Positions 12,969-20,187 of a DNA stretch of 64,000 nt are shown here, one piece after another. The position numbers and the translations under genes are program-made. Where the stretch lies: NCBI RefSeq assembly GCF_000272005.1, contig NZ_AKKU01000018.1, positions 1-64,000 of the forward strand. Reading direction: 5' to 3'. The stretch comes from Alishewanella agri BL06. GTDB lineage: Bacteria; Pseudomonadota; Gammaproteobacteria; Enterobacterales; Alteromonadaceae. Each line of letters opens with the position of its first letter. The stretch's first letter is position 1. Under the pieces are notes generated by a model. It was not told the origin of the DNA, did not search any database, and saw nothing but the letters and a program-made list of their open reading frames with translations.

Positions 12969-15845
12969 ATGTTAGCCAGCATCCAACGTTTCTCGCATCG
13001 CCTGCTCCCTGGCGCCCCCTTTATTTTGAGCCCTATTTTGTTGCTCTTAATACTACTAACATTTTTACCGTTATTATTTCAATCGAAACTACCGGCTATC
13101 AGCATTGATTATTATCTGCCGATGCACACAGCACTCGAGATAATCGCCATAACGATCAGCGCACTGATTTTCGCCGTGATCCGAGAACAAGCACAATACG
13201 AGTTAAGTTGGCGTGGGCTGGTGCTGGCGGCAGCATTTTTTGCTGTATTCTGGCTCGATCTGGCTCACATTTTATCGTTTCAGGGCATGGCGCCTTATTT
13301 TGGCGACAATACGCCAGCAAAAACCATCAACTTTTGGCTCAGTGCGCGCTTTGTTGCTGCCGTGGCTTTACTCTATGCGGTGCTGCCACAGGCCGATCGG
13401 GCAGCTAAACCGAAATTACTCTTACCTGCGATTGTTATTGCTGGTGTATTCGTCGCGCTTTGTCATATCTGGTTTATCAGCTTTCCAGACACAGTGCCCG
13501 CAACCTATCTGCCAGGAACCGGATTAACCCGCTATAAAATTCTGGCGGAATACACCATTGTTGCCATCTGTGGTTTAAGTCTGCTATTGCTCAGGTTGCA
13601 AGGTGAGCAGGAGCGGCCTTTTGCCTCGGCAGCACTTAGTGTGGCACTGATTCTGATTATTTTGTCAGAGTTATTTTTTACCTTGTATCACAGTATGAGC
13701 GATATCTATGCGCTGATTGGACATGTTTTGAAAGTTGCATCATATCTCTTTTTATATCGGGCACTGGTGCATGAAAGTCTGGCAAAACCCTTTCGTAAAC
13801 TCGCAGCATCCTCGGCTGAGCTGGCGGCGATGCTAAACGCGGTACCTGATTTGCTGTTCGAGGTGGACCTGGACGGCCGCTTTTATCGGGTGCATACCGG
13901 ACAAAACCAACAATTACTTTATTCTCCGGAGTTTTTCCTCGGTAGAACCATTGCAGAGGTGATGCCGGACTCAGCCAGACAAGCTGGTGAACTGGCGATT
14001 GCTGAAGCCTGGCAAAATAAAGGCGTTTCGTCTCCACAACACTATGCTTTAGAGATTGCCAATAAAATGGAATGGTTTCAGGTTATCGCCTCGCTAAAAC
14101 AAGAGGCAATATCAAACCATCGACCACGCTTTGTACTAGCCGCGCGCAATATTACAGAGCAGAAAATAGCCGAAGCAAACTCCCAAATAAACGCTTTGGC
14201 TTTTCAAACGCGTGAAGCCATTATGATTACCGATGCACAGCGGCGAATCATCCGGGTCAATCCAGCTTTTACTGAAATTACAGGTTACAGCGAACACGAA
14301 GTGTGTGGTCAAACCCCTGTTATCTTGCGCTCTGGTTTACATGATGAGCATTTTTATGCCGAACTATGGCAAACTCTGGAACATAACGGCGTTTGGAGTG
14401 GCGAGATTTACAACAAACGAAAAAACGGCGAAATCTATCCTGAGTACATTATCGTTAATGCCATCCATGACGAAAAAGGGCAGGTAACCCATTATATCGC
14501 CAGCTTTAACGATATCAGCGCCTTAAAGTCAGATCAGGAACGGATTTATCGGCTGGCATTTTATGACCCGTTAACGCAACTACCAAACCGACGGCTGCTG
14601 TTAGAGCGGATCAATGAAGTCCAGCACGAGTGCGCCAGAACCGGACATTATGCGGCACTGTTATTTATTGATTTAGACCACTTTAAACGGCTTAACGATT
14701 CGCTCGGACACTCCAGCGGCGACGAATTACTTAAGCAATTAGCCAGCCGCCTAAACCCAACTTTACGTCAAACGGATACGTTGGCCCGACCTGGCGGAGA
14801 CGAATTTATTTTATTGGCACCCTGCTATAAAACTCAGCTTAGCGAGGCAGCAGCAGACGCCGAGAAACTGGCAACTAAATTACTGCAACTGATCCGCGAA
14901 CCGTTCAAACTTGAGCAACAGCAATACCAGATCTCTGCCAGTATCGGTATAGCACTCTTTAACGATAATAGTAAAAATACCGATGAATTAATGGCATCAG
15001 CCGATTTAGCGATGTACCACTCTAAAGAGCAGGGGCGGAACAGGTGGTATTTTTTCGAGCAAAGTATGCAGCACAGGATTCTGTTGCGTCAGCAATTGGA
15101 AGCTGAAATGCAAACAGCATTACAGCAACAACAGTTTAAAGTGTATTTCCAGCCTAAAGTAGACGGCAGCGGCAAATTGACAGGTTATGAAGCCTTGCTG
15201 CGCTGGCAACATCCGGAACGGGGCATGATTAGTCCGGATGAGTTTATTCCAATCGCAGAACAATCCGGTTTTATTATCGAGCTGGGACACTGGGTATTGA
15301 TGCGGGCTTGTCAGGCTTTGCAGCAACTGTCTGATTCGTCGTTAGTCATTGCCATCAATGTTAGTAAACGCCAACTTCAAACCGATGATTTTGTGGAATC
15401 GACACTTGCAGCTGTGCTCAGTAGTGGTGTGCCGGCGAGCCAACTTGAATTTGAAATCACCGAAAGTATGTTAATGACGGACGTAGAGCATACCCGAGAC
15501 AAGCTTGAGAAATTACATCGTCAAGGTATTAGCTTCGCTGTTGATGACTTTGGCACCGGCTATTCATCACTGGCATTTTTGAAGAATTTACCGATTCAGG
15601 TGCTGAAGATTGATCGTTCTTTTGTCAGAGATTTTCTGGTTGATCAAAAAGATTACGCTATTGTGGATACGATTATCAGCATGGCTAAAGCGCTGAACCT
15701 TACCGTTGTTGCAGAAGGTGTCGAGACGGTAGAGCAGTTTAATATGTTATCCCAAATGCGCTGTGATTTGTTTCAGGGCTACCTGTTTGGTCGTCCGGCA
15801 GCAGACTTTGCAGCTCCCACCCTGCTGCAAGCTACCGAGAATTAA
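12969..15845 (+). CDS. Membrane-anchored bifunctional diguanylate cyclase/phosphodiesterase (MASE3-PAS-PAS-GGDEF-EAL)
   Basis: A 958-residue c-di-GMP enzyme. The N-terminal region (about 15-265) has seven or eight hydrophobic helices of the MASE3 sensor type. Two PAS domains follow (about 280-390 and 400-515), then GGDEF (about 530-690) with an intact GGDEF signature at 609-613 and an RxxD inhibitory site (RQTD) five residues before it, then EAL (about 705-950) with intact EALLR (741-745), NVSxxQL-like and DDFGTGYSS motifs. Both activities look possible from the residues; which dominates cannot be told. It ends 27 bases before the GspE-fusion gene on the same strand, so the three genes from here to 19228 look like one operon. 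Confidence 0.95.
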   Translation: MLASIQRFSHRLLPGAPFILSPILLLLILLTFLPLLFQSKLPAISIDYYLPMHTALEIIAITISALIFAVIREQAQYELSWRGLVLAAAFFAVFWLDLAHILSFQGMAPYFGDNTPAKTINFWLSARFVAAVALLYAVLPQADRAAKPKLLLPAIVIAGVFVALCHIWFISFPDTVPATYLPGTGLTRYKILAEYTIVAICGLSLLLLRLQGEQERPFASAALSVALILIILSELFFTLYHSMSDIYALIGHVLKVASYLFLYRALVHESLAKPFRKLAASSAELAAMLNAVPDLLFEVDLDGRFYRVHTGQNQQLLYSPEFFLGRTIAEVMPDSARQAGELAIAEAWQNKGVSSPQHYALEIANKMEWFQVIASLKQEAISNHRPRFVLAARNITEQKIAEANSQINALAFQTREAIMITDAQRRIIRVNPAFTEITGYSEHEVCGQTPVILRSGLHDEHFYAELWQTLEHNGVWSGEIYNKRKNGEIYPEYIIVNAIHDEKGQVTHYIASFNDISALKSDQERIYRLAFYDPLTQLPNRRLLLERINEVQHECARTGHYAALLFIDLDHFKRLNDSLGHSSGDELLKQLASRLNPTLRQTDTLARPGGDEFILLAPCYKTQLSEAAADAEKLATKLLQLIREPFKLEQQQYQISASIGIALFNDNSKNTDELMASADLAMYHSKEQGRNRWYFFEQSMQHRILLRQQLEAEMQTALQQQQFKVYFQPKVDGSGKLTGYEALLRWQHPERGMISPDEFIPIAEQSGFIIELGHWVLMRACQALQQLSDSSLVIAINVSKRQLQTDDFVESTLAAVLSSGVPASQLEFEITESMLMTDVEHTRDKLEKLHRQGISFAVDDFGTGYSSLAFLKNLPIQVLKIDRSFVRDFLVDQKDYAIVDTIISMAKALNLTVVAEGVETVEQFNMLSQMRCDLFQGYLFGRPAADFAAPTLLQATEN

Positions 15846-15872: not shown

Positions 15873-18137
15873 ATGTATGAAGTCGATGCAGAAAAGCAAC
15901 TTTATCCGGCAATCCTGGCCGTACCACGGCAGCACTTTGTCGCTGACGCCAGCCGCGAGCCACTGATCACCGGTCACAGCCTGCCAACCCAGGCGGCGAT
16001 GCAACGTTTACTAAGTTTAATCCCACCGCCGCATCCGGATGCTACGGTATTACATGTGGGCACCGGCAGCGGCTATATAGCCGCGGTATTGGCTCAAATG
16101 GCTAGTCAAGTCTATGCACTTGAGCGCGACGCTGCGGTGGCAGCTCTGGCAAGCAGTCGCCTTGCCACGCTGCACCTTAACAATGTGCAAGTCATCCATG
16201 GCGACGCTGAGCAGGATTTTGGGCCACTGCCGCCCTGTAAGCTCATTTTATGTACCTGTCAGCTACGTAGCTTTAAGTATCTGGAGCCATTATTAACCGA
16301 GCATGGTTTTTTAGTGGTACTGGAGGATGAACAGGATGGGCTATCAAATCTGGCGTTATATCAAAAAGATAACGGGAATCTGCAGCGGCGCCGTAATCTT
16401 GGCTGGATAGACTTCAGTCGTCGTTTGCAACAAAGTATTATCGATTTGGGCCTGGCCGATGAACAGTTAATTCGCGAAGCCAGCCTGGAAGCGAAAAAGC
16501 TGCAGAAACCGCTGATGCAGATCCTGAGTAAAAAACTCAACCTGGATGATCAAAAGTTATTCAGCTCGCTGGCAAAAGAACGTCAACTGCCATTTAAAGC
16601 CTTTGATGAGCTGGTCAATGACATCGACGCGAGTTTGTTCAATTTGTTCTCCAGAACCTATCTCGATCGCCAACGTGTGCTACCACTTAAATATCAACAG
16701 CAACAGCTACTCCTCGTTACCGATAATCCTGACGTACAAATTGACGAACTTATCGGTATGAACGGCAGCGGTGGCGTCGCCTGTATTTTAGTTACTCCGA
16801 ATGACTTTAAGCGTCTGTGGTCACATCTGGATATGTCGAAACGTGGTAATGATGCAATGTCACAGCAAAGGGTGCAAAGCGATGACAGCGACACTACCGA
16901 TGCACCCGCTCAAGCGGCCGATACGATTAACCCTTACCTGGTGGCGCTTTATGAAGCTATCTTGCTGGAGGCGGTCAGCGAAAATGCCAGTGATATTCAC
17001 CTGGAATTTTATAACAATGCTGCCAGGGTTCGTTTGCGGGTAGATGGCGATCTGCATGATATTCCGCATTTTCAGTTTAGTCTGGCGGAAATGGCCGGGC
17101 TGGTAAATATCATAAAAATCCGCTCAGAGCTGAATATTGCTGAGCGGCGTTTACCTCAGGGGGGTCGCTCGCAACTCAAGCACGGCGCAAATACCTATGA
17201 TTTACGGATCCAGACCCAACCTTCGTTGCACGCCGAACATGTGGTGATTCGGCTGCTAAAACACACCGGCCGCGCCCTGACGATGCAAGAGTTGGGAATG
17301 TCCGCTAAAGTCGCCGGCTATTACCACCGTTTACTCAATAATCCAGCGGGCTTGGTGCTGGTCGTCGGCCCTACCGGCTCTGGAAAATCAACAACCTTAT
17401 ATGCTGGTTTACAGGAATTAGCCGACGACGGCACCCGCAAGGTAATTACCGTTGAGGATCCGATCGAATATTCGATTGACAATATTCAGCAAACCCGCAT
17501 TCGCAGTGAAATTGGCTTTGATTTTCCGGATGCATTACGCGCCTTTGTGCGCGAAGATCCCGATGTGATTCTGGTTGGGGAAATCCGTGACCATCCGACT
17601 GCACTAGAGGCAATCCGCGCCTCACAAACCGGTCATCTGGTACTGTCGACGCTGCACTGTAACGACGCCGTAGATGCGCTACAGCGGTTGTATGACTTAA
17701 ATATTCATCCCAACTCACTGGCCAGTGAGCTGCTGGCCGTGATTGCGCAACGTTTGGCAAAACGTATCTGCCCGCACTGTAAAGTGGCAGCGACTCCGGA
17801 TCCAACGATTTTGCGCGAAGTCTTTCCTCAAGGCGTACCAGCCAGTTTTCGCTGCTATGAAGGCCAGGGCTGCACACATTGTCATGACCGCGGCACTAAA
17901 GGCCGTACCGCAGTGGTGGAATTTATGCAGGTCAACGCTGATATCCGCAATGCCATCTCACGCCAGCCATCGATTACCGAGATCCGCTGGCAAGCACTGG
18001 ATGCCGGCTTAATTACCATGCGCGACAGCGCACTGGATCTGGTGATTAATGGCGTTATTCCGTTATCTGAACTGCCTAAAATTCTGCCGCAGGATCGGAT
18101 GGCCCCCGAACAACGTGGCGGTAGCAGGAGAAGCTGA
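15873..18137 (+). CDS. Fusion of a PCMT-like methyltransferase domain to a GspE/PilB-type secretion ATPase
   Basis: A 754-residue protein in one uninterrupted frame. Residues about 1-165 resemble protein-L-isoaspartate methyltransferase: VPRQHFVADASREPLITGHSLPTQ matches the family N-terminus and VLHVGTGSGYIAAVL (about 60-74) is the SAM-binding motif I, though later motifs are degenerate (GDA for GDG). Residues about 172-300 look like a GspE/MshE N-terminal domain (LADEQLIREA, LAKERQLPF). The ATPase (about 345-740) has Walker A GPTGSGKST (from Gly499), Walker B/Asp-box DVILVGEIRD and a zinc-binding tetracysteine (Cys633, Cys636, Cys667, Cys670). No other type II secretion or type IV pilus genes lie nearby. 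It ends TGATG, overlapping the AAA+ gene start by one base, so translation is coupled. Whether the methyltransferase part is active is unknown. Confidence 0.88.
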   Translation: MYEVDAEKQLYPAILAVPRQHFVADASREPLITGHSLPTQAAMQRLLSLIPPPHPDATVLHVGTGSGYIAAVLAQMASQVYALERDAAVAALASSRLATLHLNNVQVIHGDAEQDFGPLPPCKLILCTCQLRSFKYLEPLLTEHGFLVVLEDEQDGLSNLALYQKDNGNLQRRRNLGWIDFSRRLQQSIIDLGLADEQLIREASLEAKKLQKPLMQILSKKLNLDDQKLFSSLAKERQLPFKAFDELVNDIDASLFNLFSRTYLDRQRVLPLKYQQQQLLLVTDNPDVQIDELIGMNGSGGVACILVTPNDFKRLWSHLDMSKRGNDAMSQQRVQSDDSDTTDAPAQAADTINPYLVALYEAILLEAVSENASDIHLEFYNNAARVRLRVDGDLHDIPHFQFSLAEMAGLVNIIKIRSELNIAERRLPQGGRSQLKHGANTYDLRIQTQPSLHAEHVVIRLLKHTGRALTMQELGMSAKVAGYYHRLLNNPAGLVLVVGPTGSGKSTTLYAGLQELADDGTRKVITVEDPIEYSIDNIQQTRIRSEIGFDFPDALRAFVREDPDVILVGEIRDHPTALEAIRASQTGHLVLSTLHCNDAVDALQRLYDLNIHPNSLASELLAVIAQRLAKRICPHCKVAATPDPTILREVFPQGVPASFRCYEGQGCTHCHDRGTKGRTAVVEFMQVNADIRNAISRQPSITEIRWQALDAGLITMRDSALDLVINGVIPLSELPKILPQDRMAPEQRGGSRRS

Positions 18138-19228
18138 TGCAAACCACCTCTGACAAACAGCGCCTACCGGCAGAACAAAGCTTTGCTGACGAGCTCGAAC
18201 GCCTGCGCCATTGGGATCCGGCGCCCATTCCCCCCGGTTGGCAAATGTCACCGGTTGCCGCCGAAAAATTTATTATTGGCGACCCTAATCTGAATGTTAA
18301 AAAGAAGTTTGTGGCGCCAGCCAGTGTTGTTACCCGAATTGTCATTTCGCTCTGTACCCAACGCGGTTGTTTACTGATTGGCGAGCCGGGCACCGCTAAA
18401 TCCTGGTTATCAGAATTACTGTGTGCAGCAATCTCCGGCGATTCCTCATTGATTGTGCAAGGTGGGGCGGTGAATAGTGTCGATCAGCTACTTTACAGCT
18501 GGAACCAGGCAATTCTGCAGCGTCAGGGCCCCAGCCCGGACGCTTTGGTGCCCAGCCCGTTATATCGGGCAATGCGCGATGGTAAATTTGTGCGCTTTGA
18601 AGAAATGTCGCGCTGCCCGCAACCGTTACAGGATGCTGTGCTCTCGCTGCTGTCGGATCGGGTTATCACCATACCGGAGCTAAGTGGGCCCCAGGGTGTG
18701 CTCTATGCCAAAAAGGGCTTTAATATTATCGCCACCGCCAATAGCGTGGATGAGGGCTTACATAAAATGAGCGCAGCCCTGAAACGACGGATGAACTTTG
18801 AACATATTAAGCCGATTAGTCATATTGACGATGAAATCAGTGTGGTGATGTGGGAAACCGCGAAACTGAATGCCGGCGCCGGTATCGATATTAATCTCGA
18901 CCCACTGCTATTTGAAATGCTGGCCACCATTTTTCATGAACTGCGCAACGGCCAAACCCTGGATGGTCGCAGCACGGATCGCCTGGCGGCGGCTGCTATG
19001 TCAACCGCGGAAGCCGTGGTGGTAGGCCATACGCTGTGTGTGCATAGTTATTACTATCAGCAAGGCCAGCTGGAATATGGGCAGTTGCTGCATTTCTTAC
19101 TGGGGTCAGCCTTAAAAGATAACCCGGAAGACCGCCGCCGTTTGTTACATTACTTTGATAGCGAAATCAGCAATAAGGCCGGTGCACACTGGCAACAACT
19201 CTATCAACAGCGAGAGCTGATATTGTAA
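18137..19228 (+). CDS. MoxR/YehL-type AAA+ ATPase
   Basis: A 363-residue AAA+ ATPase. Walker A is GEPGTAKSW (about residues 80-88), Walker B is FVRFEEMS, and sensor 1 is IIATANSVDEG; the C-terminal lid runs to the end. Sequence flavour and length recall E. coli YehL and the MoxR group, whose members act as chaperone-like remodellers, usually beside a von Willebrand factor A protein. No VWA gene is present here. It starts inside the stop codon of the GspE-fusion gene (TGATG), so the two products are probably made in fixed ratio and may work together. The client protein is unknown. Confidence 0.85.
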   Translation: MQTTSDKQRLPAEQSFADELERLRHWDPAPIPPGWQMSPVAAEKFIIGDPNLNVKKKFVAPASVVTRIVISLCTQRGCLLIGEPGTAKSWLSELLCAAISGDSSLIVQGGAVNSVDQLLYSWNQAILQRQGPSPDALVPSPLYRAMRDGKFVRFEEMSRCPQPLQDAVLSLLSDRVITIPELSGPQGVLYAKKGFNIIATANSVDEGLHKMSAALKRRMNFEHIKPISHIDDEISVVMWETAKLNAGAGIDINLDPLLFEMLATIFHELRNGQTLDGRSTDRLAAAAMSTAEAVVVGHTLCVHSYYYQQGQLEYGQLLHFLLGSALKDNPEDRRRLLHYFDSEISNKAGAHWQQLYQQRELIL

Positions 19229-19261
19229 CTTTGTAAATTTTTTATTTCGAAGCTTGCACAG

Positions 19262-19301
19262 CCATTTAAACTGTATTAGTGTATTAATACAGTTTAAATG
19301 G
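19262..19301. promoter_or_regulatory. 17-bp inverted repeat, probable operator of the GntR/YtrA-type regulator
   Basis: CCATTTAAACTGTATTA (19262-19278) and its perfect complement TAATACAGTTTAAATGG (19285-19301) flank the six bases GTGTAT. It directly precedes the first gene of the ABC operon, and its right end touches the ribosome site GGAG. YtrA-subfamily GntR repressors bind long inverted repeats of this kind at the head of their own ABC operons, and such a regulator is encoded at 22719-23105. A role as an mRNA hairpin masking the ribosome site is an alternative. Confidence 0.7.
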
Positions 19302-19311
19302 AGACAGGGAT

Positions 19312-20187
19312 ATGCCCGCAGTAATCGAAGTAAACAACTTAAGCCGCCACTTTAGCGGTCGTAGCGTGCTGAACCAGCTACAAGCCACAGCAGCTGAGGG
19401 CGATGTGATAGCCTTACTGGGCAAAAATGGCGCCGGAAAAACAACCTTACTGGAAACGATTCTCGGCTTTGCCGTACCGCAGCATGGCGAGGTGCGCTTA
19501 TTCGGCACCGCCAGTACTGAAATTGGCGCCCGCGAAAAGCAACAAATCGGTTTTGTGCCGCAGCAAGATGAGTTGCTGGAGCAACTGACACCCTATGAGC
19601 AACTGGAGTTATTTGCCCGCTTCCAACCGAATTGGGATCCCAAGCTGGCAGATCGCCTGTGTAGTAGCTGGGAAATTCCGCTGACGACCCGTATTAACAA
19701 ACTGTCTCTCGGACAGCGCCAGAAACTCTCCATTATGCTGGCGCTTTGTCATAACCCCAGACTCCTTATCCTCGATGAACCGGTTGCCAGCCTGGATCCG
19801 CTGGCAAGGCGGCAGTTTCTGACCGAGCTGGTGAATATTGCCGCCGATCAACAAACGACCATTATCTTCTCTTCCCATATTGTTACCGATATGGAGCGGG
19901 TGGCGAATAAAGTCTGGCTACTAAAAGATCAGCAGCTGTTATGGCAAGGCGAACTGGATGCGCTGAAAGAGTCGGTCGTACGGCTGCATTTTAGTTCCAC
20001 CAAAGCGCTACCGGCCACCTTGCATGAGTTAAAAGTGTTACATCAACAACAGCAGACCACACAATACACTCTGACCGTAACCAACTGGCAACCGCAGTGG
20101 CAGGCCAGTTTAGAGCAGCTACTGGCTACTGATATCCGGGTTGAATACCTGAATCTGGAAGAGATTTTTCTGGAGCTGCACCGATGA
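19312..20187 (+). CDS. ABC transporter ATP-binding protein
   Basis: A 291-residue ABC ATPase with Walker A GKNGAGKTT (about 37-45), Q-loop FVPQQDE, signature LSLGQRQKL, Walker B LLILDEPVASLDP and H-loop SSH. It belongs to the CcmA/YtrB-like group found with GntR regulators. It is the first gene of a five-gene overlapping operon: its stop overlaps the next start by ATGA. The operon has two large membrane proteins and a YtrA-type repressor, as in B. subtilis ytr-like systems that respond to cell-wall-active compounds. The substrate here is unknown. Confidence 0.93.
   Translation: MPAVIEVNNLSRHFSGRSVLNQLQATAAEGDVIALLGKNGAGKTTLLETILGFAVPQHGEVRLFGTASTEIGAREKQQIGFVPQQDELLEQLTPYEQLELFARFQPNWDPKLADRLCSSWEIPLTTRINKLSLGQRQKLSIMLALCHNPRLLILDEPVASLDPLARRQFLTELVNIAADQQTTIIFSSHIVTDMERVANKVWLLKDQQLLWQGELDALKESVVRLHFSSTKALPATLHELKVLHQQQQTTQYTLTVTNWQPQWQASLEQLLATDIRVEYLNLEEIFLELHR

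Follow-up and report, generated by a model that had tools for sequence, protein, structure and literature searches.

The window analysed here, a 64-kb stretch of DNA, carries a gene of 754 codons, starting with ATG, in which a PCMT-fold domain, an MshEN domain and a T2SSE secretion-type ATPase are joined in a single frame. This PCMT-MshEN-T2SSE fusion is real and conserved: carried by some aquatic bacteria, it was found in 12 genomes, and in all 12 loci it is directly followed by a gene for a YehL-family MoxR AAA+ ATPase. The architecture and this constant two-gene unit are together the finding of the present analysis. The features of the two genes, with positions in the window, are as follows.

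15873–18137, forward strand: PCMT-MshEN-T2SSE fusion protein, 754 aa (open reading frame; homologues in 12 genomes)
15873–16418, forward strand: PCMT-fold domain, residues 1–182 (PF01135; fold match Z 19.7 to 3lbf)
15972–15989, forward strand: GHSxPT signature, residues 34–39 (alignment with 18 stand-alone Pcm; sits at Pcm GQTISQ)
16047–16076, forward strand: SAM motif I VLHVGTGSGY, residues 59–68 (G63, G65, G67 and Y68 invariant in 12/12)
16419–16841, forward strand: MshEN/GSPII-type N domain, residues 183–323 (PF05157; fold Z 13.9; tandem RLG c-di-GMP motif absent)
16941–18071, forward strand: T2SSE secretion-type ATPase core, residues 357–733 (PF00437, 2.3e-109)
17367–17393, forward strand: Walker A GPTGSGKST, residues 499–507 (motif check across 12 homologues)
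17769–17882, forward strand: tetracysteine region C633, C636, C667, C670 (residue check across 12 homologues)
18137–19228, forward strand: YehL-family MoxR AAA+ ATPase, 363 aa (AAA_5 match; YehL similarity; adjacent in 12/12 loci)

Architecture and distribution of the fusion

The first-pass annotation of this DNA had proposed one continuous frame from a PCMT-like N-terminus to an ATPase, and the domain search bore this out. All three domains exceeded their curated Pfam cut-offs: PCMT (PF01135) at residues 6–168 (1.5e-12; 48.2 bits, cut-off 20.3), MshEN (PF05157) at residues 239–321 (6.8e-10; 39.2 bits, cut-off 23.1) and T2SSE (PF00437) at residues 357–733. The N-terminal 186 residues also matched PCMT when scanned alone (7.3e-14). 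A structure of residues 1–325 was predicted from six sequences (mean pLDDT 70.6). Residues 2–182 of this model matched E. coli Pcm 3lbf (Z 19.7, rmsd 3.6, 177 aligned), tied with the match of residues 2–200 to CI-PIMT 8qby_t (Z 19.8, rmsd 4.4, 181 aligned), and the following part matched the PilF GSPII-B (MshEN) domain 9glg_A (residues 181–323; Z 13.9, rmsd 4.7, 137 aligned) and MshE 5htl_B (residues 182–320; Z 13.7, rmsd 4.3, 137 aligned). Because of these structure matches, we describe the protein as three domains, with an MshEN domain larger than its Pfam match. The ATPase part of a full-length model was poor, with block means of 24–62.

The 12 fusion genes come from 11 of 395 sampled genomes of the family and one genome of another order, and all counts given here refer to sampled genomes. 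The family members belong to Alishewanella, Arsukibacterium and two other genera (six in the genus group of the window, two in group g75 and three in g72), and their open frames range from 749 to 780 in length. With a profile of the N-terminal half, the 11 fusion genomes scored at least 246 bits and pcm-like matches at most 73 bits. The named carriers include Alishewanella jeotgali, A. aestuarii, Arsukibacterium tuosuense, A. perlucidum and A. ikkense, whose copies were taken to be those of G016, G003, G026, G004 and G005, respectively. Near full-length matches were observed in at least 6 of the 98 genomes of a search among relatives (listed to an E of about 1e-83), including the genome of the window, which was also the only carrier in a 295-genome sample of the order (E 1e-22). 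In a 369-genome sample of the class the fusion was found in two, the same genome and G1010, a draft genome of another order with the gene on a contig of 10.9 kb and 62% GC that is assigned to it; within that order it was present in one of nine genomes, being absent from the congener G1032 (80% complete) and seven others. Since the architecture is identical in 12 genomes, a frame joined through a sequencing or assembly error was ruled out.

A scan for promoters and terminators gave no more sites than shuffled sequence. Among the best-scoring 5000 tblastn records, no plasmid record covered 80% of the whole fusion protein, and a phage search with the ATPase core as the sole query returned 38 records, all below 60% identity. 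Separately, G319, one of the 395 family genomes and among the low-scoring matches of the N-terminal profile, encodes a different PCMT fusion (L132:1282-3264), a single 660-aa frame with a canonical PCMT (PF01135, 9.3e-62) and an erythromycin-esterase domain (PF05139, 4e-131); it is of another kind and was left out of the count.

Residue-level features of the three domains

The earlier description of the N-terminal domain, with VLHVGTGSGY intact and later motifs worn, was correct for motif I and half right for the rest: the acidic residue after motif I (position 84; Glu in nine fusions, Asp in three) and the motif II Asp (D111) are kept in 12/12, whereas the isoaspartate site has changed alike in all 12 fusions, together with the Gly after D111 (kept in 1/12; Ala or Val in 11/12). 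In comparison with 18 stand-alone Pcm sequences, the isoAsp site GQTIS has become GHSxP in every fusion, with Thr replaced by Ser and Ser by Pro in 12/12; the final Thr of the GHSxPT signature is Pro in L101. The 18 sequences had been chosen by a pattern biased towards conservation at this site, G[QHA][TS][ILV]S, so the invariance of GQTIS among them is partly a selection effect, and the change in the fusions is unaffected by it (of the 21 Pcm loci, L069 and L072 were unparsed and L006, the same gene as L104, was dropped). Also missing from all 12 fusions are an 8-residue loop before the catalytic turn (ENTALPIG in the Pcm of the same genome) and 17 N-terminal columns of the stand-alone family Pcm, and the motif II Ala of Pcm is Cys129 in all 12. 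In active PIMT, according to the available part of PMC11522691, Thr60 and Ser62 bind isoAsp, and the Gly that follows the Asp of motif II contacts SAM.

Because the SAM residues are kept and the isoAsp site is rebuilt in 12/12, isoaspartate repair by this domain is unlikely and SAM/SAH binding is plausible; judged from the residues, the domain would have a cofactor pocket that is largely kept and a substrate site that has been rebuilt. A SAM sensor or remodelled binding domain had been among the initial suggestions, and it thus gains support at the residue level. The predicted structure agrees with a PIMT fold over residues 2–182, but residues 24–36, within which the rebuilt turn lies, have a pLDDT below 50. 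Four pairs had a dS between 0.2 and 1.2, and their dN/dS values for the domain, 0.29, 0.16, 0.12 and 0.05, indicate purifying selection. The domain was the fastest-evolving part in three of these four usable pairs; in the three Arsukibacterium pairs its values were 0.12–0.29, and those of the ATPase 0.03–0.05. Nine pairs were computed in all, and five PCMT values were set aside owing to saturated dS (window/L036, 0.12; window/L040, 0.13; L080/L081, none) or few changes (L036/L037, a close pair, 0.33; L081/L082, 0.15).

A motif scan of the 12 fusions found the tandem RLG...G c-di-GMP motif in none, and direct c-di-GMP binding by their MshEN domain through the known motif is therefore unlikely. 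Of 31 further rows searched with the same pattern, four had it (L016, L019, L025 and L034); its absence is common, since the PilB and GspE encoded in the genome of the window also lack it.

The ATPase had been called a complete secretion ATPase with Walker A, Asp box and zinc cysteines, and we accordingly found Walker A, D564, E570 and the four zinc cysteines to be identical in 12/12 fusions. The residues of the T2SSE superfamily (Walker A, Walker B Asp/Glu, Asp/His-box and tetracysteine) are present in all 12, including those that we take to be the Asp/His boxes. The assignment to a GspE-type ATPase with a GspE N-domain held for the MshEN and T2SSE domains and failed for the type of ATPase. 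The fusion scored 424.9 with the PilB profile (TIGR02538; equivalog cut-off 675.65), versus 833.6 for the PilB of the same genome, and 416.9 with the GspE profile (TIGR02533; equivalog cut-off 630.25), versus 728.4 for its GspE; with the TfpB profile (NF053534) it scored 364.2 bits against an equivalog cut-off of 850. The fusions of L036, L080 and L101 were likewise below the equivalog cut-offs of PilB, GspE and TfpB. In a tree of 42 rows, the 12 fusion ATPases grouped together with support 100/100, and the GspE clade, the PilB rows and the RLG-bearing group all fell outside this clade. The fusion stem and the outgroup are long branches, for which long-branch joins were warned of, and the tree holds no TfpB row; our claim is restricted to the unity and separateness of the fusion clade, its sister group being excluded. 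By profile, then, the fusion ATPase is neither PilB nor GspE, and in the tree it stands as a separate clade.

The AAA+ partner and the genomic setting

In the window, the ATG of the AAA+ gene overlaps the stop codon of the fusion by one base. Its product matched AAA_5 in Pfam and shares 49% identity with E. coli YehL over 353 columns. The two genes overlap in 11 of the 12 loci, by 1 nt in the window, L036, L037, L081 (where the contig ends within the AAA+ gene) and L082, and by 4 nt in L038, L039, L040, L078, L079 and L080; in L101 the AAA+ gene begins 18 nt past the end of the fusion. It is the sole neighbour observed across all 12 loci, including the distant locus on the 62% GC contig. The survey of gene neighbourhoods that the first-pass annotation had recommended thus yielded the strongest clue, a partner which that annotation had missed.

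YehL-like genes were found in 14 of the 395 family genomes, comprising all 11 with the fusion and three without. In two of the latter, G328 and G332, the gene lies in a DUF4132/AAA/DUF5682/VWA/SWIM cluster (recognized by Pfam and by similarity, respectively), and the third, G140, has it on a contig of 3.5 kb, downstream of a DUF4132 gene. E. coli K-12 has a like set (yehI, yehK, yehL, yehM, yehP and yehQ). DUF5682 was found in none of the 12 fusion genomes and in both G328 and G332, with E. coli matching as the positive control, and no DUF4132, VWA or SWIM gene was seen beside the fusion in the flanks read. In the class sample, 13 of 369 genomes carry a YehL-like gene, namely G000 and G1010, which have the fusion, and 11 others, in which the class-sample search gave no fusion match. 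Five of these 11 regions were examined at length, four having DUF5682-type neighbours and L126 having none, and the other six were covered by flanks of 1.5 kb. We know of no link between YehL-type ATPases and pili, and our literature search found no paper making one, nor any mention of DUF5682 in the papers that were scanned for it. The available text of PMC7159879 makes no mention of YehL, yehM, YehP, MolR, pilus or GspE. Chaperone-like roles are described for MoxR ATPases, and the in vivo roles of the family are called unclear, in the available part of PMC3893208.

Other neighbours were frequent or conserved in part of the loci, as listed below.

12969–15845, forward strand of the window: MASE3-PAS-GGDEF-EAL c-di-GMP enzyme, ending 27 bp upstream of the fusion (frequent, not constant)
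L038:12598-12939, L039:7112-7453, L040:12425-12766 and L078:12630-12983: third gene of about 113 aa
L079:12349-12702, L080:12969-13349 and L082:3923-4255: the same third gene

The MASE3-PAS-GGDEF-EAL gene lies just upstream of the fusion in five of the six genus-group loci, the exception being L038. Another GGDEF-EAL gene lies downstream of the fusion in L078 and, by similarity, in L079, and the available sequence of the remaining four loci, shorter than 8 kb in two cases, showed none. The conserved third gene follows the fusion and the AAA+ gene in 7/12 loci; Pfam scans of the product from two of these loci gave no match, and tblastn detected no copy of the gene in the window, L036, L037, L041, L081 or L101. 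Several side observations were made in these regions. In A. aestuarii the MASE3-GGDEF-EAL gene upstream of the fusion (L037:10117-13021) is broken into two frames that overlap, through either a mutation or an error of assembly. Near the fusion of Arsukibacterium tuosuense (G026), L039:15899-18127 encodes a glycosyltransferase family 2 protein with MshEN (Pfam), with RLG-like motifs by eye, possibly pointing to c-di-GMP-controlled exopolysaccharide synthesis. Related ABC genes flank the fusion on either side in L036, L037, L038, L040 and L082, and in the window a stretch that is palindromic by eye (19228–19312) lies upstream of an ABC transporter/GntR-regulator operon.

Elsewhere, the genome of the window encodes a T2SS cluster with GspE and GspF, a pilB-pilC-pilD set and a canonical pcm beside surE (GspE and PilB were named by profile, the platforms by T2SSF, and the others by gene order and eye). 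Four T2SSF matches, on contigs C15 and C21 only, correspond to only two platform proteins. The statement that no pilus or secretion genes lie around the fusion was upheld, in that no T2SSF platform gene occurs within the window; further, none of the loci read showed a pilus or T2SS gene next to the fusion. Because the genome has only two platform proteins, its three extension-type ATPases share them, and the fusion is therefore an extra motor without its own platform, which fits either action in trans, as shown for TfpB (PMC8213720), or a job outside pili. Platforms are present in all 12 fusion genomes and also in 13 of 14 control genomes, so that their co-occurrence with the fusion says little.

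Proposed mechanism and comparison with known systems

We tentatively favour the reading in which the fusion is an orphan accessory motor whose N-domain is gated by SAM/SAH and which has a MoxR chaperone of its own; we regard this as possible rather than probable. The gene product would be an orphan secretion-type (extension-type) motor, presumably a hexamer, whose PCMT-derived N-terminus may still bind SAM/SAH and would no longer repair isoaspartate. The motor might be gated, in either direction, by SAM/SAH occupancy or by a partner docked on the rebuilt site, and could act in trans on either of the two platforms that the cell has, the pilus protein PilC or the T2SS protein GspF, much like the accessory motor TfpB of Acinetobacter baylyi. 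The YehL/MoxR AAA+ protein would serve as a dedicated assembly or remodelling chaperone, possibly through translational coupling with the fusion. Counted in favour are the fold, the ATPase residues, the separate clade, the kept SAM and replaced isoAsp residues, the purifying selection on the PCMT domain, the two platforms for three ATPases, the AAA+ gene in 12/12 loci and the precedents of TfpB, CI-PIMT and MoxR. Counted against are the lack of pilus or T2SS neighbours and of a known link between YehL and pili, the uninformative co-occurrence of platforms, the low pLDDT of the rebuilt turn, the loss of the motif II Gly, the poor ATPase model and the faster evolution of the PCMT domain. A bolder version is unlikely: a two-ATPase machine in which a SAM/SAH-gated rotary motor with a captured PIMT domain would be loaded or reset by the YehL-type AAA+ protein, so that methyl-donor status would switch pilus extension, secretion or another remodelling process.

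We prefer the accessory motor over two other readings of the same genes. It is somewhat unlikely, on balance, that the pair forms a free two-ATPase remodelling module with no pilus or secretion motor, in which the fusion would be an adaptor and second motor acting on some client in place of the DUF5682/VWA/SWIM partners of YehL. The AAA+ gene as the only constant neighbour, the YehL-bearing class genomes that lack the fusion and mostly have DUF5682-type neighbours where examined, and the distribution of DUF5682 all point this way; however, the tested T2SSE motifs and MshEN are kept, pointing to docking and rotary action of the usual kind, and, to our knowledge, MoxR proteins do not use T2SSE-type partners. 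We consider it rather improbable that the PCMT domain is an active methyltransferase for a new protein substrate (for example the AAA+ partner or a component of a pilus or secretion system), with the motor supplying targeting. The SAM motif kept in 12/12 is consistent with such activity, and the invariant GHSxP and Cys129 in place of the old site fit a changed rather than a dead one, whereas no candidate substrate is linked, the motif II Gly is lost in 11/12, and in the three Arsukibacterium pairs the domain has a higher dN/dS than the ATPase. The initial suggestion that the domain could methylate a component of a pilus or secretion system is no more than a possibility. We give almost no credence to an artefact or a decaying gene, that is, error-joined genes or a PCMT remnant: low identity to Pcm and the fast evolution of the domain speak for it, but the same fusion occurs in 12 genomes and its PCMT domain is under purifying selection (dN/dS 0.05–0.29).

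Extension motors are controlled by c-di-GMP and protein cofactors, according to the available part of PMC11656802; a motor with a built-in SAM-binding domain, if the accessory-motor reading is true, would couple machines of this kind to central metabolism. Through its constant pairing with the fusion, the YehL-type gene provides a handle on the MoxR family, and the rebuilt PCMT site adds to CI-PIMT a clear-cut natural example of a repair enzyme that appears to have been repurposed. Overall, the fusion and the apparently complete ATPase of the first-pass annotation stand and its SAM-sensor reading has residue-level support, with the addition of the AAA+ partner, an MshEN domain without the c-di-GMP motif and an ATPase that is not GspE or PilB. 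No description of a PCMT-MshEN-T2SSE fusion was found in the literature search, and the nearest known systems each share part of it.

TfpB, an accessory type IV pilus motor of Acinetobacter baylyi, is described in the available part of PMC8213720 as phylogenetically distinct, without pilB-pilC synteny, and needed for efficient pilus extension. The fusion is similarly an extension-type ATPase apart from PilB and GspE and without such synteny; however, it is not TfpB by profile (364 bits versus 850), and that part of the paper mentions no methyltransferase domain or MoxR partner for TfpB. With PilB, GspE and MshE the fusion shares MshEN and a T2SSE with tetracysteine, but it falls below the PilB and GspE cut-offs, forms a separate clade, has PCMT in front and lacks the RLG motif. 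It shares the fold and most SAM motif residues with Pcm/PIMT, in contrast to which the loop at its isoAsp site is lost and Thr and Ser are replaced by Ser and Pro. The PIMT-family subunit of Paracoccus complex I (CI-PIMT, 8qby_t), part of a large complex, is concluded to have lost catalysis in the available part of PMC11522691; there too a PIMT fold is reused in a large machine and the isoAsp Thr/Ser are replaced, although loss of SAM binding is also reported for it (Asp134 and Gly135 changed), whereas the fusions keep the motif II Asp in 12/12 and the following Gly in 1/12. Finally, the partner ATPase resembles YehL of the E. coli yehI-yehL-yehM-yehP-yehQ cluster (49% identity), whereas DUF5682 is absent from the 12 fusion genomes, which have the T2SSE fusion instead.
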